This document shows positions 678 to 21,034 of a stretch of DNA of 21,384 nt, piece by piece. The number at the start of each line of letters is the position of its first letter. Position 1 is the first letter of the stretch. The position numbers and the translations under genes were made by a program. This DNA is from a virus, in IMG/VR virus record IMGVR_UViG_3300048929_000342, positions 1-21,384 of that record; one strand, written 5' to 3'. The notes under the pieces were generated by a model. It was not told the origin of the DNA. It ran no database searches and was given only the letters and a program-made list of their open reading frames with translations.

Positions 678-753
678 GGGCGCATAGCTCAGTTGGTAGA
701 GCAGATGACTCTTAATCATCGGGTCCCAGGTTCGAGCCCTGGTGCGCCCACCA
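678..753 (+). tRNA. tRNA-Lys (CTT), CCA encoded
   Basis: A full cloverleaf can be drawn. The acceptor stem GGGCGCA pairs with TGCGCCC; the D arm holds AGTTGGTAGAGC; the anticodon stem GATGA/TCATC encloses loop CTCTTAA with anticodon CTT (711-713), reading AAG lysine codons; the T arm contains GGTTCGAGCCC; and CCA is encoded at 751-753. The gene is the integration target of the element to its right. The last 47 bases of the mature tRNA (707-753) are provided by the 48-bp attL core, so the gene stays functional after insertion. Confidence 0.97.
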
Positions 754-754
754 C
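707..754 (+). repeat. attL core (48-bp direct repeat with attR)
   Basis: Bases 707-754 are identical to 20189-20236. The repeat begins in the 5' side of the anticodon stem and runs through the anticodon loop, T arm, acceptor 3' strand and CCA plus one base. Flanking bases differ at both ends (T706 against A20188; C755 against T20237). A repeat of this kind with an integrase at one end is the classic product of tyrosine-recombinase insertion into a tRNA 3' end. Confidence 0.95.
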
Positions 755-1206: not shown

Positions 1207-2277
1207 TTAACCGCCGAACTGCGCAACCAGTTTGACGATGGCCTGATCTGCCAACTCCGCCTGACCACCCAGATAGTTCGCTTCCAAGATTATTTCCACG
1301 TCTTTGAGGCTGTGGCCGGTGATCGAAGCAATCTGCGGGACAGTGCACCCTGCCAGCGCCAGCCGCGTGACAGCGGTGCCGCGCAGGTCGTGGAAATGCA
1401 GATCGAAGTCGCCCAGATTCGCCCGGTCGAATGCCTTTCCCCACGAGGTTCGGAAGCCGTCGCCGGTCCATGGCTCGCCGAAGGTGTTGCGTAGGATCGT
1501 CCCCTCGGGCTTTGCAGGCCGGCGCGCATCGAGCGCAGCCTTCAGCGCCGGCCCGACCGGGATCACAACGCGCTTCTTCGCCTTGCCTCTGCGGCGCTTG
1601 CCCTGCTGCAATCTGATGTGGGTACCGTCGTATTGCGACCATGTGATCTTGATCAGGTCACCTTGGCGCTGGCCTGTCCAGAGCGCGATCAGTAGTGCGA
1701 ATTGAAGCTCGGGCGATGCTGCAGCGCAGAACGCTGTGATGTGTTCGGGTTGCCAGATGATGTCGGCGCGGTCCGATTCGTAAAGCCGGCCGCCGCGCTC
1801 GCACACGTTGACCGCGATAGTCCCATGATCCTTGGCCACCGCCAGCACGCGCGCGATCGTTGTCCAGGCGTAGTCCGCTGTCCGCGGGTTGTCCGCCATG
1901 CTTGCCCGCCACGTCTTGAACTTGCCGCGGGCGCGGCGATCTTGGACCACCGACAGCGGCATCGTGCCGAACTCGTCCTCAATCATCTTGAGGTATCGAC
2001 GGTAAGCCTTCTTGGTGACTTCCGCGAGCGAAGTGAACTCGGTGGACGCCCTGAATGCCGCGACCAAGGAGAACAGCGTTCCGGTAACAGGCTTGGTGCG
2101 ATCCGCATGCGCAGCCGTGTACGCGACCACGAACTGCGGATCGCCTGGCGACAGCGGTTTCCCATCGGCGCTTTTGAGCATAGGACCGCCGCGCCACGCA
2201 TAGTAGTATTTGCGCAGCGAGCCGTCAGCGAGCCGTTTAGACGCGGTCGCTACGCCGGGCAGCTTTCGCCGATGCAT
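1207..2277 (-). CDS. int: Tyrosine-type site-specific recombinase (integrase)
   Basis: 356 residues. This enzyme catalyses integration and excision between the two tRNA-Lys repeats. The C-terminal catalytic domain shows the family residues: Arg204 in TGQRQGDL, candidate Lys227 in the beta-hairpin, His296 and Arg299 in HDLRGTA, His322 in TGHS, and the nucleophile Tyr335 in EANYLG. The N-terminal half (about 60-165) looks like a SAM-like core-binding domain, preceded by a short basic N-terminal region that may bind arm sites. The start at 2277 overlaps the end of the upstream 72-aa gene by 41 bases, so it is probably translationally coupled to it. The gene lies last in a four-gene leftward operon and points at attL. 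Confidence 0.95.
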   Translation of the reverse strand: MHRRKLPGVATASKRLADGSLRKYYYAWRGGPMLKSADGKPLSPGDPQFVVAYTAAHADRTKPVTGTLFSLVAAFRASTEFTSLAEVTKKAYRRYLKMIEDEFGTMPLSVVQDRRARGKFKTWRASMADNPRTADYAWTTIARVLAVAKDHGTIAVNVCERGGRLYESDRADIIWQPEHITAFCAAASPELQFALLIALWTGQRQGDLIKITWSQYDGTHIRLQQGKRRRGKAKKRVVIPVGPALKAALDARRPAKPEGTILRNTFGEPWTGDGFRTSWGKAFDRANLGDFDLHFHDLRGTAVTRLALAGCTVPQIASITGHSLKDVEIILEANYLGGQAELADQAIVKLVAQFGG

Positions 2278-4105: not shown

Positions 4106-4399
4106 TTGTCAAATGAAAATGACGCACGCTTTCGCCTGCGAGAACTACACGCGCTACTGGTCAGTGAGATCGATCGCAACGCGCACGACTGCGCGGTCCG
4201 CGTTCTGAAGCAAATCGGCAAGGAAGCCGCTGCGGCACGCATCACCAACGATCCGATCGCCGTATCCGCCGACCTCGATATCCGCTTGACGTTTTGGCGC
4301 ACGTTGTACGACCGCGCCAAATCGCGCCGCGCGTTCGAGCAGGAACTGGAAATTCTCGAACATATGCGCAGGGAAGATGCGACGCGGGTGTCGGCATGA
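4106..4399 (+). CDS. Hypothetical protein preceding the primase-helicase (97 aa)
   Basis: 97 residues, starting with TTG behind a well-placed AAGGA. Predicted to be almost wholly helical and charged (RELHALLVSEIDRN, RLTFWRTLYDRAKSRRAFEQELEILEHM), with no domain I recognise. Its stop overlaps the ATG of the primase-helicase (ATGA at 4396-4399), so the two are translationally coupled. A role as an accessory of replication is inference from that coupling. Confidence 0.75.
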   Translation: MSNENDARFRLRELHALLVSEIDRNAHDCAVRVLKQIGKEAAAARITNDPIAVSADLDIRLTFWRTLYDRAKSRRAFEQELEILEHMRREDATRVSA

Positions 4400-7014
4400 G
4401 CGATGTACTACGCCTCGCAAAATACTACGCCGAGAAGATGAATTGGGCGGTATTTCCCGCGCCGCAGGGCGAGAAGAAATCCCGCAAATCCGCCGAGCAC
4501 AGCAACGGCCGCAAATGGGGAGCGACCAAGGACAGCATTGAGATTGAAGGTGACTTCATTCGGTGGCCAGATGCAAACGTCGGTATAGTTACCGGCGAAA
4601 TTTCAAACATCTTCGTCATCGAGGCCGATACGCTTGAGGGGCATGAGGTAGACGGGATCGCGTCACTCGATGCGCTTCAAGCTCTGCATGGCACTTTTCC
4701 TCCCACACTGCAGGCGGAAAGCCCGAGCGGTTCCATTCACTACTATTTCCGGCATCCCGGCCTTCCAGTCAAAACCTGCGCCGGAGAACTCGCGCCTGGC
4801 GTCGACATTCGCGGCGACGGCGGCATGGTCATCGTGCCGCCGTCCGTCAGGCCGGCCAAGGAGGGTAGGCCGGGTGGCACGTACAAGTGGCGTAACCCGG
4901 AACAGCAGGTTGCGGAAGCACCGACGTGGTTGTTGACGCTCGTTCAGGCCCTCAACTTGCCATCGGAACGCACAGCGGCAGCGCGCGCAGTGACAGCCAC
5001 GGGGACACCAATCCCGAGCTACAAAATCGATAGCGCGCGTGAACTCTACACATGGCTACGTGACAACGACGCGATCACGAATCGGAGAGACTGGATTCTG
5101 GTCTGTGGTGGCGCGGCTAAATACGAATTCGGCGATGACGGTTTCGAGTTGTTCGAGATTATCTGTCACGGTGGCGGCGCCGACAACACCGCCAAATATC
5201 AATGGAACTCCCTTAAACCCGACCACAAGAACCCTGCGACGCTGCTCGGCGTGATGGACATTGCGCATCGCGCCGGGTGGAAGGGGAGCGTGGAAAAGAC
5301 AGCGCACGGCACTTTCAAGGACGTTTTACCCGCCATTGCCGCAGTCGCCGCGGCGACGCCGCCGCCCGCTGGCTCTACTTCGATGTTGGGACACGCGCAG
5401 GCGACGTCCGATCTAGGCTTGCCGATCCTAGCGGCCTTCAATGCAGCCCACACGATCGCTCATGCAGCGGATGCGCCAACTTTCCCAATCGAAATCAAGA
5501 CGCCGCCGCTGCGAGGGCCGCTGACGGAAGCCATCGGCAAGCTCTACACCCTCGCTGATCGGGACGGCGCAGCCCTCCGATACGACACATTCGGGGAGTT
5601 GCTAGGTGTGCTTTCACAGGCGCACGATATCACGCTTGATACTGTTGTCGCCCGCATTCGGTCGGCAGGCGTCGTAGTGCCGGAGGGGCGGCTAAAGCGC
5701 TCGCGCCGGGAGTTCGAGAACGCAGTCGTTCAAGAGGCCCGGACCGGGAACGGTTGGCACACATCTTCCAAAGGTAACAAGCCTGATCCAAATATTTCGG
5801 AAAATGCAGACGTCCTTCTGGCCATGCTTCATACCGAACTGAGGTTCAACGAGTTTGCACGGCACGTAGAATTTAGCCGAGATGGAGCACCCTGGCGCAT
5901 GTTGGACTCGACCGATCTGCGTGCGATATTCTATGAGGCAAACTCCGCTGTTCATCTTTTCCATGCTTCGATGAACTTCCTCGACACGTGCATGACGACG
6001 ATCGCCCGACGGCGCACCTACGATCCGCTGACGGATTATCTCGACACTTTGCGATGGGACGGCGAACCACGGCTGGATAAATGGCTTCACCATGCCTGCG
6101 GTACCCCTGCAGATGCATACCACGCCGCCGTCGGGCGAAACGTCATGGGTGGATTGGTCAAGCGCGCACGTCACCCAGGATGCAAGCACGACGAGATTCT
6201 GCTGCTCATCGGTCGACAGGGCGTCACGAAGTCAGGTCTAGCAGCATCACTGATGCCGGATCCCACTTGGTATGCAGACACGATAAACCTGCGACGGAAC
6301 CTCGGCGACCTAATTCCGGAGATTTCGGGAAAGTGGATGATCGAGTGGTCTGAACTCGCAAGCATGGGCAAAACAGCGGTCGAGGACGTCAAGGCATTCA
6401 TCTCGCGCAGTACAGACCGCTACACCAAAAAGTTCGAGAATATCGCCGGCGATCATCCCCGCCGCATGATCTTCATTGCGACGTCAAACGATGACGAGCC
6501 GCTCCAGGATGAGTCAGGCGGGCGTCGATTTCTTCCTGTGCGGGTGCTGCGCGAAATCGACATCCCATGGATCGAAGCAAACCGGGACCAGATGTTCGCG
6601 GAGGCGTCGGCGCTGCACGCCAATGGCGATCGTTTCGGTATCCCCCGAGAACTTTGGGGCGTGGCGGCCGAGCACCAGGAGGCGGCGCGCAGTCGCCCCC
6701 TGCATGAGGAGTTCATCGCCGACTGGTTCTCGGGGCGTGCAGAGCCTTTCTACATCACGTCGAAAGACTTGGTCGAGGCGCTGCGTCGCTCTAGCGCGGG
6801 CACCAACAAGATCAGCGAGGCGTGCAAGCGTGTCGGTCTCGAAAAGCGCCGCAGCAACCGCATCACCGACTTTTGGATAACTGCTGGCGCCGACGTCAGT
6901 GCAACGCCGCGGGTCCGTCTGGCTGAGCAACGCGTAGGGGAAACGCATTCGAAGGTCACCTGGCAGTGGCCCTTAGTAGCGGTCCGCCAGCCAGCACCGC
7001 CGCCGCCGTACTGA
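4396..7014 (+). CDS. Primase-polymerase / VapE-type helicase replication protein
   Basis: 872 residues; the start at 4396 sits in an ATGA overlap with the preceding gene. The N-terminal part (about 1-200) is a bifunctional primase-polymerase (AEP) domain: the acidic pair in VIEAD (Glu76, Asp78), SGSIHYYF (111-118) with its conserved His, and GVDIRGDGGMVIVPPS (135-150). The C-terminal part (about 550-750) is a virulence-associated-E / D5-like P-loop helicase: Walker A GRQGVTKS (606-613, Lys612), Walker B region MIEWSEL with Glu653, an IATSN sensor (Asn698) and GRRFLPV arginines (710-711). This architecture replicates phage satellites and small temperate phages, usually from iterons beside the gene. 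Such a repeat cluster begins seven bases after the stop codon. Confidence 0.92.
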   Translation: MSDVLRLAKYYAEKMNWAVFPAPQGEKKSRKSAEHSNGRKWGATKDSIEIEGDFIRWPDANVGIVTGEISNIFVIEADTLEGHEVDGIASLDALQALHGTFPPTLQAESPSGSIHYYFRHPGLPVKTCAGELAPGVDIRGDGGMVIVPPSVRPAKEGRPGGTYKWRNPEQQVAEAPTWLLTLVQALNLPSERTAAARAVTATGTPIPSYKIDSARELYTWLRDNDAITNRRDWILVCGGAAKYEFGDDGFELFEIICHGGGADNTAKYQWNSLKPDHKNPATLLGVMDIAHRAGWKGSVEKTAHGTFKDVLPAIAAVAAATPPPAGSTSMLGHAQATSDLGLPILAAFNAAHTIAHAADAPTFPIEIKTPPLRGPLTEAIGKLYTLADRDGAALRYDTFGELLGVLSQAHDITLDTVVARIRSAGVVVPEGRLKRSRREFENAVVQEARTGNGWHTSSKGNKPDPNISENADVLLAMLHTELRFNEFARHVEFSRDGAPWRMLDSTDLRAIFYEANSAVHLFHASMNFLDTCMTTIARRRTYDPLTDYLDTLRWDGEPRLDKWLHHACGTPADAYHAAVGRNVMGGLVKRARHPGCKHDEILLLIGRQGVTKSGLAASLMPDPTWYADTINLRRNLGDLIPEISGKWMIEWSELASMGKTAVEDVKAFISRSTDRYTKKFENIAGDHPRRMIFIATSNDDEPLQDESGGRRFLPVRVLREIDIPWIEANRDQMFAEASALHANGDRFGIPRELWGVAAEHQEAARSRPLHEEFIADWFSGRAEPFYITSKDLVEALRRSSAGTNKISEACKRVGLEKRRSNRITDFWITAGADVSATPRVRLAEQRVGETHSKVTWQWPLVAVRQPAPPPPY

Positions 7015-7020
7015 CCACGT

Positions 7021-7124
7021 CATGAGAGCATGAGAGACGCAAAACAGCCTCTCATGACGTGTCTCTCATGCCAAAATCGCTTTAGAAACAGTCCTTTAGA
7101 TACTTCATGAGAGACATGAGAGAC
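7021..7124. other. Candidate replication origin: six CATGAGAG iterons
   Basis: CATGAGAG occurs on the forward strand at 7021-7028, 7029-7036, 7106-7113 and 7115-7122, and inverted as CTCTCATG at 7049-7056 and 7063-7070; four of the six extend to CATGAGAGAC (7029, 7106, 7115 and the inverted copy at 7061-7070). The 34 bases between the inverted copies and the last pair are AT-rich and hold two CTTTAGA repeats (7080-7086, 7094-7100), a possible unwinding site. Position directly after the primase-helicase gene matches P4 and SaPI/PICI origins, where the initiator binds short repeats. Origin function is inference. Confidence 0.65.
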
Positions 7125-7253
7125 AGATATAAGATTCAAGAGGATATGAAAACGCAACGCCTTGCTTCGTTTCCTGGTGCTCTTGGAAGTTCGATTCTGC
7201 CGCTCATGCCTCACATGCCAACCACTCAACACTTAATCGCAAGAGGACCACCA

Positions 7254-7487
7254 ATGCTTGATGAGATCAAATTGACCGAATTGAACCTTCGCGAAGAAGC
7301 GACGTGGGGAGCAAAGAACATCGCGAGGATCGCGCGCGTGTCGCCCGACCTGATTTACGAATGGGCGAAGCTACCCGACTGCCCGATCACACAGCCCGAT
7401 GGCTTTCGGTACTTCGTGCTGAAATCGGCGTTCGTTCGGTGGTTGACCGCGAAGCAGCCAAGACTAGCCAACGTTAGCAAAGGGTAG
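7254..7487 (+). CDS. HTH DNA-binding protein (77 aa), AlpA/excisionase/TerS-like
   Basis: 77 residues. Start 7254 has AAGAGG (7241-7246) seven bases upstream; earlier in-frame ATGs at 7107 and 7146 lie in the iteron region or have bad spacing. Residues 17-65 form a MerR/Nu1-like winged helix: TWGAKNIARIARVSP, then a YEWAKLPDCPITQPDG turn and FRYFVLKSAFVRWL. In phages this fold appears in AlpA-type activators, excisionases and the DNA-recognition domain of small terminases. It lies between the origin and the portal gene, a place that suits a late-gene activator or a packaging-specificity factor. Which of these it is cannot be told from sequence. Confidence 0.75.
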   Translation: MLDEIKLTELNLREEATWGAKNIARIARVSPDLIYEWAKLPDCPITQPDGFRYFVLKSAFVRWLTAKQPRLANVSKG

Positions 7488-11280: not shown

Positions 11281-11652
11281 ATGCCTATGAAGCCAGCCCG
11301 AATTCTTTCATGCGGATGTCGTGTCGCCTCAGGTGAGCGGTGTCACCACGTGATCGTAGAGAAGCGCGCCATCTATCGTGCATCCGATGCAAGGCGACCT
11401 TCATCTGGCCAGCGTGGCTATGACGCCGAATGGCAGCGCGTCAGCAAAGCCTACCTTGCCGAGCCAGGCAACGACCGATGCGGATGCGGTGCGCCTGCTG
11501 TGTTGGTTGCGCACATCTTCTCTATTCGCAAAGCGCCGCACCTCAGGCTCGATCGATCGAACTGGAAGCCGTCGTGCCAGCGCTGCAACGCCATCGATAG
11601 AGCGAACGATAGCCCCGGGGGTGGTCGGAATGTTTCAGCAAATGCTTCCTGA
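11281..11652 (+). CDS. HNH endonuclease (packaging-associated type), variant active site
   Basis: 123 residues from ATG 11281 (AGGA at 11267-11270). The pattern QRGYDAEWQRVSKAYLA, a CGCGAPA Cys cluster (C67, C69), VAHIFSIRK (His78), LDRSNWKPSCQRCN (Asn94, C99, C102) is that of small phage HNH nucleases that work with TerL in cos-type packaging. Two positions differ from the usual form: VDHI is VAHI, and the final His of the CH motif is Asn103. HNN variants of this fold are known, so activity is possible. There is an extra N-terminal Cys/His group (C11, C13, C21, H22, H23) that may bind another metal. Placed far upstream of the terminase genes. Confidence 0.8.
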   Translation: MPMKPARILSCGCRVASGERCHHVIVEKRAIYRASDARRPSSGQRGYDAEWQRVSKAYLAEPGNDRCGCGAPAVLVAHIFSIRKAPHLRLDRSNWKPSCQRCNAIDRANDSPGGGRNVSANAS

Positions 11653-11829: not shown

Positions 11830-13125
11830 ATGCCCCATAAGATCAATCTTGTTCGCGTTCTCACGAGCGCCACAGGCAACTCGACTCCGATCACGCTCGG
11901 CGCGAAGTACTCGCAACTGTTTCTCCTACCGTCTGAAGCCGGCGCAATGGACGGTCGGACCTACTCGTACCTGATCGTCGACGGCAACAACTGGGAGCGC
12001 GGTCGCGGCGTTTACACTGCGTCCGGTACCACCTTGGCGCGGAACGTCACTCAGTCGTGGAATGGCTCCGTACTCGGAACAAGCCGAATCTCGCTATCCG
12101 GCACCGCGCAAGTCCGATTCGCCGAGCCTGCCGAAGATATGGATGGCGTCCGCGGAACTCGCGCGGTCACTGGAACGTCGGACACGCTGAACGATTCCGA
12201 TCTTGGCTATGTCGTCACCTACAGTAACGCGAGCGCGGTAGCCGTGTCGCTGGCACAGGCGTCGGTGTCGAACCTGTTCATGGATGGCTGGGCGGTCTGG
12301 GTTAAGAACAAGGGCGCTGGTGCCGTCACCATTACGCCAGCCACCAGCACGATCGATGGGGCTGCAACACTGGTGCTGGCGCAGAACCAGGGCGCGCTGA
12401 TCTGGTCGGACGGAACGAACTACCAGTCGTTCAAGCTCCGCGGCGATCTGGGGACGGCCGCGGTGCGCGCAGACACGGACTTCGTGCGAACGGATACGGC
12501 GCAGTCGCTGTCGACGTCTCAACAGTCGCAAGCCCGCTCAAATGCCGGTATTGATGTAACAACACTCTCCAAAACGGCAGGCTACACCGTAGTCGCTGCA
12601 GATTACGGTGCGCTGATCAAGTGCAGCGGAACTTTCACGCTGGCGCTCACTGCCGCGGCGACTCTCGGCGATAAATTCAAGGTGTTCGTGCGCAACACCG
12701 GCACAGGGTTGGTCACGCTCGATCCAAATGCTTCTGAGTTGGTGGATGGCGTCGCGACCGTCGGACTTTTACCCGGCACCGGCTGCTGGGTAATCTGCGA
12801 TGGTACTGGTTTTGTGACAATCGGTCGCGCGGTTGAGGCACAGAACCTGTCGACTACCGGCTATCTAAAGTTGGCTGGTGGACTGATCATGCAGTGGGGC
12901 ACGACGGGGGTCGGCGCACAGACAGTGACGTTCCCTGTAGCATTCCCGAATGCATGCCTCCGGATACTGGCCATGGTCGATATCGGAACTACAACCGCGT
13001 TCGTTGTCTCTCCAAACATCAGCACGCCATCGACCACCAGCTTCACGACCTCTCCGACGTATTCGACTGGCGGATCTCCGACGGCTGCTGGAAATTCAGT
13101 CTCTTGGATAGCATTGGGGAATTGA
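11830..13125 (+). CDS. Tail-fibre-like / receptor-binding protein
   Basis: 431 residues, GGAGAG just before ATG 11830. Residues 1-95 are a beta-rich N-terminal domain (ITLGAKYSQLFL, DGRTYSYLIVDGNNWERGRG, VYTASGTTLARNV) seen in fibre-like proteins of alphaproteobacterial phages. Residues 118-201 and 250-331 are two copies of one beta-domain (pattern ...W-VWVKNKGAGAVTI... and ...F-VFVRNTGTGLVTL..., each ending in a DGT motif), divided by a short linker. The C-terminal part (348-431: LAGGLIMQWGTTG ... VTFPVAFPNACLRIL ... SWIALGN) resembles the gp53-like tail-fibre C-terminal domain that binds the host surface. It lies inside the head gene block, where tail fibres are not usual; a head fibre or decoration role is the alternative. 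Confidence 0.8.
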   Translation: MPHKINLVRVLTSATGNSTPITLGAKYSQLFLLPSEAGAMDGRTYSYLIVDGNNWERGRGVYTASGTTLARNVTQSWNGSVLGTSRISLSGTAQVRFAEPAEDMDGVRGTRAVTGTSDTLNDSDLGYVVTYSNASAVAVSLAQASVSNLFMDGWAVWVKNKGAGAVTITPATSTIDGAATLVLAQNQGALIWSDGTNYQSFKLRGDLGTAAVRADTDFVRTDTAQSLSTSQQSQARSNAGIDVTTLSKTAGYTVVAADYGALIKCSGTFTLALTAAATLGDKFKVFVRNTGTGLVTLDPNASELVDGVATVGLLPGTGCWVICDGTGFVTIGRAVEAQNLSTTGYLKLAGGLIMQWGTTGVGAQTVTFPVAFPNACLRILAMVDIGTTTAFVVSPNISTPSTTSFTTSPTYSTGGSPTAAGNSVSWIALGN

Positions 13126-16426: not shown

Positions 16427-16821
16427 TGGCTGACGATCTGGACCGATACCTCGCGGCGTTGCCTGACAAGATCCGTCGCGAAGTGGGCGGCGTGGTCCGT
16501 GACCAAGCCCAAATGCTCTCCGATGCCCAGCGCGATGCGTTGCGCGGGCTGGAGCAAGCGCCTGCTGACAGCGGCGACCTGGAAGCGTCCTGCACCGTTG
16601 TCCGGGGCACCGACGATCTCGAATGGATTGTGCAGGCAGGCGGCGACGAGACCACTGGTGACGTCCGCACCGGCAGCGGTGTCGATTTTGACTACGGCGA
16701 GGCTTTCGAGTTCGGCACCAGCCGGCAGCAAGCGCGCCCGTTCTTTTGGCCAACCTATCGTGAGAAGCGCGACGGGATCCGGCAAGCAATCGCTTCAGCG
16801 GTGGAAAAGGTAATCAAATGA
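16426..16821 (+). CDS. HK97 gp10-family neck/tail component
   Basis: 131 residues, start overlapping the TerL stop (TGATG). Family pattern: DLDRYLAALPDKIRREVGGVV with a long helix, LEASCTVV, then DFDYGEAFEFGTSRQQARPF and the closing FWPTYREKRDGIRQAI helix. HK97 gp10-like proteins are part of the tail-proximal neck. Directly linked to terminase here, which is not the usual neighbour. Confidence 0.88.
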   Translation: MADDLDRYLAALPDKIRREVGGVVRDQAQMLSDAQRDALRGLEQAPADSGDLEASCTVVRGTDDLEWIVQAGGDETTGDVRTGSGVDFDYGEAFEFGTSRQQARPFFWPTYREKRDGIRQAIASAVEKVIK

Positions 16822-17198
16822 ATCAATGCGCGCGCGAAGTGACATGGGCTGGCGGCGTCCATGTTTTCAATCTGAACGAACCGCGAGTCCTGAAGGTGCT
16901 CAACGGGGCGCCGGATGCGTTGAAGATGCTCCGCACCCGCACGGGTGTGTTCACGCTGGAGCCGCTACGTGGCCAGTTCGGCGACACGCCGGCTGCGTGC
17001 TTACGACGCTTTGAGGAAGGGGTCTATTCGCTGCCAGACGTCGAGCGGGTGATCCTCTACGGCCTGTGGGGCGGCGGCATGAAATTCAGTGACGCGGATG
17101 CGCTCGTCGAGGAATTCGTACGCAACCAGCCCGTTCACCAGAATGCTGTGATCGCTTATGGCGTCGTGGCCGACCTGTTCGTAGGAGTCACCAATTGA
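16818..17198 (+). CDS. Tail assembly chaperone, GTA-gp10-like
   Basis: 126 residues, ATGA overlap with gp10. It resembles the tail-assembly-chaperone family seen in gene transfer agents (gp10-like): 'FNLNEPRVLKVLN', a RTGVFTLEPLRGQFGD stretch, SLPDVERVILYGLWGGGMKFSDADALVEEF. Such chaperones keep the tape measure in solution while tube subunits gather. It precedes the tape measure gene with the typical tight overlap, but the tube gene that normally comes just before is absent. Confidence 0.75.
   Translation: MNQCAREVTWAGGVHVFNLNEPRVLKVLNGAPDALKMLRTRTGVFTLEPLRGQFGDTPAACLRRFEEGVYSLPDVERVILYGLWGGGMKFSDADALVEEFVRNQPVHQNAVIAYGVVADLFVGVTN
17183..17187 (+). promoter_or_regulatory. Ribosome binding site deciding the TTG start of the tape measure gene
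   Basis: AGGAG lies seven bases before TTG 17195, which overlaps the preceding stop (TTGA). This supports TTG as the true start. Confidence 0.7.
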
Positions 17199-19372
17199 GC
17201 GTCCCAGCACTCAACATCCCGATCCGAGCCGACGTCAGCAAATTCAAGCAGGACATGGAGTCGACCAGTTCGATCGCCGGGCACGCCGTTCGTGGCATCA
17301 CGGCGCAGGTCATCAAGATGAACGCCGGCTGGCTGGCGACGCAAGGCGCAGCCGGCGGCGCTGCCCTGGCATTTGGCAGCGTCCTCGGCGTCCTCGGTCC
17401 CATTGCCGCAGGCGTGGCTGTGGTCACCAACACCTTCAAGCTCATGGCGTACGCGACCGAGCTTGCCAAGAAACAGATCGAAGAATTCAACGACGTTGCT
17501 GACAAAGCCGCCGGCACGGGCGTCTCGACGGATTTCTTCCAGCGGTTCACCAAGACGGCGCCCGCCGCCGCGCTTTCGCTCGACCAAGTGACCGCCGCGC
17601 TGAAGCGGTTCAACGAGGCGTCTACCGACAAGCTCGGCGGAAGCGACTTGCAGCAGCGGCTCGACGCCCTGACCAAGGCTGGCAATTTCGCCGGCAACAG
17701 CGGGACCGCTGAACTCGGCGCGTCCAACAACACCGAGGAGAAGCTGCGCGCCACGGCAAAGTTGATCAGCGAGGCCCTGGACAAGGGCGAACGGCTGGCT
17801 GCTCTTGATATTGCGGGCAAGGCGTTCGGCGCGCCTGTCGCCGAGGCGTTGCAGAAGAACAGCGGCTATCTCGACGACATGCTGAAGCGCGCCGATGCGC
17901 TGAACAAGTCGCAGATCATCTCTCCCGAGGACGTCGGCCGCGCGATCGAACTCAAGGAGCGGATGGACGCCGCACAGCAGACGCTGTCCGAGAAGTGGAA
18001 GCCGGTCCAGGACGACCTCGCGAAGCTCGGCATGAACTACCACCAGAGCTGGGTGGAGATCACGGAGGACCTCGCCGCGGCCGTTGGCTATGCCACCCAG
18101 CTCTATTCGGCGCTCAACAAGGTGCCGGACTGGTTTGCCAAACGGATTGGCGGAGCATCTGTGTGGCAGTCGATCACGGATGCCACGACCACGCCGGCGA
18201 GCCGGGCAGCATCCGAGATGTCGCTTGGCATTTCCAGCGATCCTGTCGATATCGCGTCCGTCGATTCCAATGCCAAGCTTCGCGCTGCGCTTCAAAACCA
18301 TGGCAACGTCACGCGAGGGATGCAGCAGGCGACCGATATCCAGTCGGCGGTGCGGGGCGACACGTCCAAGAACCCGACCGAAGCCAAAGCGGAAACGGCC
18401 GACCAGTTCGACCGAGCGACTGAGGCGGTGCAGAAGCACACCGCCCGAACGGAGGCTGACACCAAGGCCGTCGGTCTCGGCGCCGGCGCGCTCGGCGAAC
18501 TGCGCACCGAGGCACAGTTGTTAACCGCCGCGCAACAGGCCGGCCTGCCCATGACGCAGGCGCTGGCTGACAAAATCCAGGATCTAGCCCAAGACGCCGG
18601 CGACGCCGCGACGGCTTTGGAAAGGGCCAAGGTCGCCAGCGAGATCAGATTTGACCGCGGTAGTGCCTTCCTCACATCGGAGGATCTGCAGATCGCGCAA
18701 CGGCTCAAGGGCATCTACGGCGACGACATTCCGGCAGCCCTCGCCAGCAGCGAAGCCGCGGCGATGCGGTTCACCAACAGCCTGCGGTCCATGTCCGACT
18801 TGGGTCAGCAGATCAACCAAGGCATGTTTGTCGAGTTTGGGCAGAACATCCGAAACGGCGCCAGCGCCTTCGACGCGCTGAAGCAAGCCGGCAGCAGCGC
18901 GCTCGGCAAGATCGCCGACAAGCTGGCTTCGATGGCGGCGGACAACCTCTGGAAGTCGGCATTCGGCGGCTCCAGCGGCGGCGGCCTGATGTCGCTTTTG
19001 GGTCTGGGCGGCTCCAGTGGCGCGGAGCTTCCCGGCTTCGGCACCGCCAGCTTTGTCGGTCCGCTTCCTGGCAATGCGACCGGGACGGACAACTGGCGGG
19101 GCGGTCTGACCCGCGTCAACGAACAGGGCGGCGAGATCATGAACCTGCCGGGCGGCACTCAGATCATCCCGCACGATATCTCCATGGCTATGGCGAAGGG
19201 TGGATCTGGAGGCGGCAGCGTCACGGCACCGGTCACAATCACAATCGATGCCACCGGTGCGGATCCCGCCGGCTTAGCGAGGGTTCAGCAGCAGTTGGCG
19301 ACCCTGAAGGCGGAACTGCCCGCACGGGTCGTGGCAGCGGTCACGACCGCCAAGAAGCAGCGCCAGCTATGA
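17195..19372 (+). CDS. Tail tape measure protein
   Basis: 725 residues from TTG 17195. The N-terminus (LNIPIRADVSKFKQDMEST) is typical of tape measures, followed by a hydrophobic stretch (51-79: AAGGAALAFGSVLGVLGPIA), long Ala/Lys-rich helical regions, and the C-terminal tape measure signature GGLTRVNEQGGEIMNLPGG (636-654) with TQIIPHD. The length sets the tube length; at the usual 0.15 nm per residue this predicts a tail near 110 nm. No peptidase or lytic domain was seen. It overlaps genes on both sides (TTGA, ATGA), so there is no sign of a deletion at its borders. Confidence 0.9.
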   Translation: MSVPALNIPIRADVSKFKQDMESTSSIAGHAVRGITAQVIKMNAGWLATQGAAGGAALAFGSVLGVLGPIAAGVAVVTNTFKLMAYATELAKKQIEEFNDVADKAAGTGVSTDFFQRFTKTAPAAALSLDQVTAALKRFNEASTDKLGGSDLQQRLDALTKAGNFAGNSGTAELGASNNTEEKLRATAKLISEALDKGERLAALDIAGKAFGAPVAEALQKNSGYLDDMLKRADALNKSQIISPEDVGRAIELKERMDAAQQTLSEKWKPVQDDLAKLGMNYHQSWVEITEDLAAAVGYATQLYSALNKVPDWFAKRIGGASVWQSITDATTTPASRAASEMSLGISSDPVDIASVDSNAKLRAALQNHGNVTRGMQQATDIQSAVRGDTSKNPTEAKAETADQFDRATEAVQKHTARTEADTKAVGLGAGALGELRTEAQLLTAAQQAGLPMTQALADKIQDLAQDAGDAATALERAKVASEIRFDRGSAFLTSEDLQIAQRLKGIYGDDIPAALASSEAAAMRFTNSLRSMSDLGQQINQGMFVEFGQNIRNGASAFDALKQAGSSALGKIADKLASMAADNLWKSAFGGSSGGGLMSLLGLGGSSGAELPGFGTASFVGPLPGNATGTDNWRGGLTRVNEQGGEIMNLPGGTQIIPHDISMAMAKGGSGGGSVTAPVTITIDATGADPAGLARVQQQLATLKAELPARVVAAVTTAKKQRQL

Positions 19373-19797
19373 TCGACCACGAATGGCTGCAGGACCGGCT
19401 GGCTGGCGTGCTGCGCTGGCAACTGGCGCACCCTGGAGAGGTCGACAGCCCCGACGCACCCGAAGTCCCGATCGCGGGCCAGCGGGTTTGGGGGCTGTTT
19501 CTGGCGCTCCACGCGGCGCGCACGGGCAACGGCTTCGGCCCGAACCCGTTGAGCAACGCCGAGATCGAAACTTACGCTCGGATGGCGCGCGAGCCTATTC
19601 GACCGTTTGAGTTTGAAATGCTGCGGGCGCTCGACCGCGCGTACCTAGAAGCGTCGCGGGAGCAGGCGAAACCCGAGGAGCCGGAGCGGGAGCGCCCCTC
19701 GTCGGGCGATATCATGGGTGCATTCCGGCGGGCCGCGAAGCAGGAGGTGTCGGAGCGGGTACTGACCGCCCCATTGTTCGACGCGCTGTTTCCGTGA
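19369..19797 (+). CDS. Tail-assembly-associated protein (142 aa)
   Basis: ATGA overlap with the tape measure stop. The core LSNAEIETYARMAREPIRPFE then FEMLRALDRAYLEA follows the 'p-ei-aya----pl-pwE---l-alD-ayl' pattern found in small proteins beside tape measure genes (often named tail assembly chaperone or minor tail assembly proteins). The C-terminus is charged and then has a short helical end. In most phages this type comes before the tape measure; here it follows it. Function by pattern only. Confidence 0.65.
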   Translation: MIDHEWLQDRLAGVLRWQLAHPGEVDSPDAPEVPIAGQRVWGLFLALHAARTGNGFGPNPLSNAEIETYARMAREPIRPFEFEMLRALDRAYLEASREQAKPEEPERERPSSGDIMGAFRRAAKQEVSERVLTAPLFDALFP

Positions 19798-20188: not shown

Positions 20189-20236
20189 GACTCTTAATCA
20201 TCGGGTCCCAGGTTCGAGCCCTGGTGCGCCCACCAC
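20189..20236 (+). repeat. attR core: tRNA-Lys 3' remnant
   Basis: Identical to 707-754. It holds the tRNA-Lys sequence from within the 5' side of the anticodon stem to CCA plus one base, without D arm and 5' acceptor strand, so it is not a functional tRNA. It marks the right end of the element; host sequence resumes at 20237. Confidence 0.95.
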
Positions 20237-20419: not shown

Positions 20420-20734
20420 ATGGACTACACTTATCCTGTGATCGAAGTTCGCGAAACGCCCGAGTTCACGCGCTGGCTTGTCGCACTGAAAGATAGGCGA
20501 GCCGTTCTTCATATCGTTCGTCGAATCGGCCGTGTGGCCGCAGGCAATTTCGGCGACGTGAAGTCGGTCGGTGGGGCGGTGGCCGAACTACGGATCGATC
20601 ACGGCCCCGGATATCGCGTCTACTTCACCCGGCGCGGGTCGGTGCTGGTGATCCTGCTCTGCGGCGGCGACAAGCGCACGCAGAGCCGGGACATCGAAAA
20701 AGCAGCAGAGATTGCAGCGAAATTGGAGGACTAG
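20420..20734 (+). CDS. RelE/ParE-superfamily toxin (HigB-like 'addiction module killer')
   Basis: 104 residues. Pattern of the killer-protein family: ETPEFTRWLVALKDRRA, IVRRIGRVAAGNFGDVKSVGG, VAELRIDHGPGYRVYFTRRG, LLCGGDKRTQSRDIEKA. The RVYF and GGDK-TQ-RDI segments are the usual signature of this group; such toxins are mRNA interferases acting at the ribosome. The antitoxin gene starts on the base after its stop, in toxin-first order. It lies outside attR and so is host chromosome or a remnant of another insertion at the same tRNA. No ribosome binding site is obvious. Confidence 0.9.
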   Translation: MDYTYPVIEVRETPEFTRWLVALKDRRAVLHIVRRIGRVAAGNFGDVKSVGGAVAELRIDHGPGYRVYFTRRGSVLVILLCGGDKRTQSRDIEKAAEIAAKLED

Positions 20735-21034
20735 ATGAAGGTCAGCAGTCTGAAGAAGTTCGACGCAGCCGAACATCTGGATAGTCCGGAAATGCGCGCA
20801 GAATATTTGAATATCGTTCTTGCCGATGGCGATGCCGATGAGATCCGCGACGCTCTGAATGTCATCGCTCGCGCCCAGGGCATGAGCGAGGTCGCCAAGG
20901 CCGCTGGCGTGACCCGCGAGGGGCTCTATAAGACGCTCGGGGAAAGTGGCAACCCCGAGTTCGCTACAGTTCTGAAAGTCATCGGAGCCTTGGGAATCCG
21001 CCTTTCGGCACACGCGGCTGGTACCAAGGGCTGA
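20735..21034 (+). CDS. HigA-like antitoxin with HTH (addiction module antidote)
   Basis: 99 residues; GGAGG (20725-20729) and a start directly at the toxin stop. The N-terminal part (SLKKFDAAEHLDSPEMRAEY, LNIVLADGDADEIRDALNVI) and the HTH part (MSEVAKAAGVTREGLYKTL, NPEFATVLKVIGALGIRL) match the antidote family paired with this toxin type. It neutralises the toxin and likely binds the palindrome before the operon. Confidence 0.93.
   Translation: MKVSSLKKFDAAEHLDSPEMRAEYLNIVLADGDADEIRDALNVIARAQGMSEVAKAAGVTREGLYKTLGESGNPEFATVLKVIGALGIRLSAHAAGTKG

Follow-up and report, generated by a model that had tools for sequence, protein, structure and literature searches.

In PICIs, the replication origin (ori) lies immediately 3' of rep and consists of two iteron sets around an AT-rich region; a fragment spanning rep and ori drives plasmid replication (PMC6092414). 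The Rep protein of SaPIs and the Cch2 protein of SCCmec recognise the iterons downstream of their genes with their C-terminal domains (PMC7581432). In the window, i.e. the whole stretch of 21,384 nucleotides of viral DNA analysed here, a cluster of short repeats at 7021-7124 follows a gene for a Prim-Pol/VapE primase-helicase. We consider it highly probable that this cluster is the replication origin, of the SaPI/PICI iteron type, of the integrated 19.5 kb element in which it lies.

With the Gram-negative PICI origins (EcCICFT073 and others; PMC6092414) the cluster shares its position 3' of pri-rep, an AT-rich stretch flanked by iterons, and an iteron sequence that changes from element to element. 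Unlike these PICIs, the element probably resides in another host group, Bradyrhizobium, has another iteron sequence and brings capsid, terminase and tail-like genes of its own; its origin function is predicted. In SaPIbov1, SaPI1 and SaPI5, too, the iterons are found downstream of the helicase gene, and the SaPI helicase loads itself and recognises them with its C-terminal domain. The window is, however, remote from the SaPIs in sequence, and its six iterons of 8-10 bp are laid out as ++--++. SCCmec Cch2 also binds, with its C-terminal domain, direct repeats directly downstream of its gene, but these are only three short AAGTG iterons and no primase is fused to the helicase (PMC7581432). The P4 alpha protein with ori and crr is a satellite primase-helicase acting on repeats as well, a likeness drawn from its description only; the window cluster resembles SaPI and PICI origins more than P4.

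The repeat cluster and its element

The six copies of CATGAGAG lie at 7021, 7029, 7049, 7063, 7106 and 7115; the window contains no other exact copy. The initial annotation had described four direct and two inverted copies within 104 bases, four of them extended to ten bases, next to an AT-rich stretch with two CTTTAGA repeats, and all of this was found. The order is + + - - + +, the copies at 7029, 7063, 7106 and 7115 run on to CATGAGAGAC, and CTTTAGA occurs at 7080 and 7094. The iterons form a ++-- set (7021-7070) and a ++ set (7106-7124), separated by 35 bp with 66% AT compared with 39% window-wide, an AT content reached by just 0.5% of the window's 35-mers. With the primase stop at 7014 and the first iteron at 7021, the cluster lies immediately 3' of the presumed initiator gene (Table 1).

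Table 1. Features of the element and its putative origin (window coordinates)
Feature	Position	Strand	Basis
attL, 48 bp perfect repeat, 3' part of tRNA-Lys	707..754		
Tyrosine integrase of the element	1207..2277	-	PF00589, 2.6e-13
Primase-helicase (Prim-Pol + VapE-like AAA+), likely initiator	4396..7014	+	PF09250, 1.2e-33; PF05272, 1.4e-58
Predicted C-terminal winged-helix domain (residues 767-830), likely iteron reader	6694..6885	+	AlphaFold models
Iteron 1, CATGAGAG	7021..7028	+	
Iteron 2, CATGAGAGAC	7029..7038	+	
Iteron 3, inverted	7049..7056	-	
Iteron 4, inverted, CATGAGAGAC	7061..7070	-	
AT-rich gap with two CTTTAGA, candidate unwinding element	7071..7105		composition; function inferred
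Iteron 5, CATGAGAGAC, base 7115 common to iteron 6	7106..7115	+	
Iteron 6, CATGAGAGAC	7115..7124	+	
Possible degenerate inverted pair, one mismatch each	7201..7217	-	weak
HTH gene (77 aa, AlpA/excisionase-like) adjoining the origin	7254..7487	+	phrog_66, E 0.0024
attR, second 48 bp copy	20189..20236		

In 3000 dinucleotide shuffles of positions 7000-7149 the most frequent 8-mer occurred once or twice, and three times in two of the shuffles, as against six times in the real sequence. The CATGAGAG cluster is also the top 8-mer cluster of the window, where at least four copies within 150 bp are found nowhere else. Window-wide, matches to CATGAGAG with one mismatch are at chance level; two inverted ones 80-90 bp beyond the cluster, CATGAGCG (7201-7208) and CATGTGAG (7210-7217), may be degenerate members of the iteron set. 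No DnaA boxes were found near the cluster, and the GC skew of the element has no turning point there. As far as can be judged from sequence, the cluster displays every feature of a PICI or SaPI origin.

The att repeats bound an element of 19,482 bp. The att/tRNA stretch matches Bradyrhizobium plasmid records, a hint, short of proof, that the host group is probably Bradyrhizobium. Besides the integrase, the primase-helicase and the small HTH protein, the element encodes a portal, protease, capsid, terminase and connectors, and at 11830-13125 and 16818-19797 it carries tail-fibre-like, tail tube-like, tape-measure-like and tail-chaperone-like genes. A lysis gene was not recognised among the proteins scanned, nor was a master repressor identified in the element. 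Of the PICI hallmarks, the integrase, the tRNA-Lys att repeat and the primase-ori arrangement were found; the AlpA-like match is weak. With tail-type genes present and lysis genes unrecognised, the element may be a satellite, a small phage or a defective prophage.

Two other sites were seen. The sequence CCCCGGGGGTGGTC at 11613-11626, where an HNH-like gene ends, is a possible cos (packaging) site; GGGGGTGGTC occurs in about 30 related records, mostly with GGGACCGGCGCGGGG or a similar sequence some 20 bases later (as in L070, L080 and L082). Just outside attR, at 20420-21034, there is a small toxin-antitoxin-like pair of HigB/HigA-like appearance, within which a repressor (phrog_4268) is located at 20735.

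The putative initiator

For the primase gene, the ATG at 4396 was preferred as the start over the upstream TTG at 4294. The protein found no close relatives as a single query. PriRep1, a vapE-like primase-helicase solved with dsDNA (7PDS), is its best match among solved structures both in sequence (E 8.6e-28) and in fold (Z 28.5), the latter covering the helicase and the C-terminal domain; the two are 26% identical over the aligned residues, and this likeness concerns the protein only. The next fold matches are the primase-helicases of NrS-1 and SaPI5, the fold of SaPI5 Rep being common to the window protein (7OM0, Z 13). AlphaFold modelled residues 529-872 (mean pLDDT 86) as the AAA+ core followed by a winged-helix-like domain, which was obtained again when the domain was modelled alone (pLDDT 72). 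Both runs gave helices followed by two strands, the order of a winged helix. Compared alone, the C-terminal domain matched no single fold significantly (best E 0.09), and its top rows include many winged-helix regulators. According to these models, the initiator would be a primase-helicase with a predicted C-terminal DNA-binding domain.

A possible course of initiation is that the Prim-Pol/VapE protein binds the CATGAGAG iterons through its C-terminal winged helix. As in the SaPI and PICI work, hexamers could assemble on the iteron sets to either side of 7071-7105. The protein would then melt this AT-rich stretch and load itself as the helicase, and its Prim-Pol domain would prime DNA synthesis.

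Joint exchange of replication gene and repeats

About 130 related loci were collected by terminase and portal searches. Two of them, L004 and L087, are closely related to the window outside the replication module: L004 has 98% identity in the terminase, 92% in the HTH protein and 83% in the portal, and L087 has 94% in both the HTH protein and the portal. Their replication protein, composed of Prim-Pol and AAA_25, is unlike that of the window, and the stretch between the replication gene and the HTH gene contains TGCCAACG repeats instead of CATGAGAG. In both records the TGCCAACG cluster is the strongest 8-mer cluster. Because L004 and L087 keep the HTH protein but differ in the replication protein and in the repeats, the repeats travel with the replication gene. 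The comparison amounts to a natural experiment in which replication gene and repeats were exchanged together.

This bears on the idea that the repeats are operator sites through which the HTH protein, being AlpA-like, controls its own promoter. The last two repeats lie 130-150 bp ahead of the HTH gene, and self-activation has a precedent in the E. coli PICI EcCICFT073, whose AlpA is an activator of its own expression (PMC6092414). Yet an HTH protein that is 92-94% identical is accompanied by TGCCAACG where a different replication protein is present, and clusters of a similar type follow VapE genes in many elements. The repeats are thus linked to the replication gene and not to the HTH gene, which argues against an operator; we regard this explanation as improbable.

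Even less probable is that the inverted copies form an RNA hairpin, a terminator or attenuator that ends the primase mRNA. The perfect 13 bp arms (7016-7028 and 7049-7061) and an RNA folding z-score of -2.94 fit such a structure. However, any inverted copies yield stems, no terminator-like site was found on this strand, and what recurs across the family is a set of short copies, direct and inverted, rather than a stem. The iterons of plasmids can act in copy control in addition to initiation, but that the cluster is a copy-control, partition or incompatibility site, or a set of sites for a helper-phage protein, instead of the origin itself is equally hard to credit, since its place immediately 3' of the initiator gene and the joint divergence agree with the tested PICI origins, and the scan of the proteins recognised no partition gene.

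The origin reading, proposed initially as iterons beside the initiator gene, is supported by the chance tests, by recurrence in the VapE family and by the exchange in L004 and L087. The putative window origin belongs to an already known kind, since its layout has been published for SaPIs and E. coli PICIs.

Repeat clusters of the VapE family

The same CATGAGAG set turned up in no relative, whether in the IMG/VR stretches, in 391 genomes (from the family of a Bradyrhizobium genome) or among the related loci. Close CATGAGAG pairs occur in 27 IMG/VR stretches, none of which has a set directly after a primase gene; at least three copies are present only in L136/L153 and in L154, where they sit within coding sequence. 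L153 (4163-4260) and L136 (7983-8053) belong to one AT-rich 36 kb phage contig, with CATGAGAG in two intergenic stretches near antirepressor-like genes; these repeats are probably regulatory and unrelated to the window cluster. Isolated pairs were found in 9 of the 391 genomes, with no third copy near them. Conservation of the repeats in relatives, which had been suggested as a check, thus holds for their kind and position, but not for the exact CATGAGAG set.

For the family-wide comparison, VapE relatives were drawn from genome contigs, viral contigs and the genus Bradyrhizobium, giving 144 non-redundant loci, and a region beginning 90 bp ahead of the VapE stop and ending 330 bp past it was scored for at least four copies of one 8-mer. 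Such clusters were found at 78 loci (54%), compared with 2 of 116 stretches upstream of VapE (2%) and 3 of 259 other ORF ends (1%); the remaining 46% of the VapE loci have none by this exact 8-mer test. The motifs vary from locus to locus (CTGACGCA, ATGACGCA, CGGTTACA, CGGAAACA, GGTAGGAA and others). At 61 of the 78 loci, with 34 expected, the most AT-rich 30-mer lies inside the iteron span; these AT-rich gaps have only AT-rich words in common, at low frequency. TGACGCA-type iterons were noticed at L092 5376-5476 and L065 1660-1900, with VapE primases 34% identical to that of the window in the helicase region; TGACGGACA of L065 resembles TGAGAGACA of the window.

Most interesting is the layout of remote VapE loci, in which the spacing is conserved and the sequence is not. 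Neighbours of the same orientation are 8-10 bp apart, with a peak at 9, and opposite copies peak at about 22 and 44 bp. In the window the corresponding distances are 8, 9 and 14 bp for the same orientation and 20 and 43 bp for opposite copies. Copies less than 7 bp apart were not counted separately, so the 9 bp peak is in part built in at its short end; the peaks at 22 and 44 bp are unaffected. Two remote loci, L277 and L287, match all six window sites in place and orientation to within 3 bp with unrelated repeats (p 0.003 for both, the lowest value that 300 shuffles allow). A window-like layout at p<0.05 was seen at only 10 of 77 loci, about 4 being expected.

It had also been suggested that relatives with diverged C-terminal domains change the repeat in parallel. 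For the closest primases, those of L305 and L306, identity is 48-49% in the AAA+ core and 18-32% in the C-terminal stretches, and these loci have different repeats in the same place, as suggested. Among locus pairs with a C-terminal similarity above 0.6, 82% share the motif, compared with 2% at low similarity, and over 49 loci motif and C-terminal similarity correlate (Mantel rho 0.29, p 0.006). This effect is inseparable from overall helicase relatedness, as the AAA+ core correlates too and the partial correlation is -0.007.

A tentative interpretation, which we would hold with somewhat less than even confidence, is that VapE-type primase-helicases have a common origin grammar in which the spacing is fixed (about 9 bp; 22 and 44 bp), the sequence is free, and the word is set by the fast-diverging C-terminal winged helix. 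With the window, an element of the Bradyrhizobium group that encodes a capsid gains a probable origin of the PICI type. How the C-terminal domain of an initiator reads its iterons becomes directly testable with the family-wide data set. If the grammar is true, origins and their specificity would be predictable from sequence in satellites and small phages well outside the PICIs described so far.
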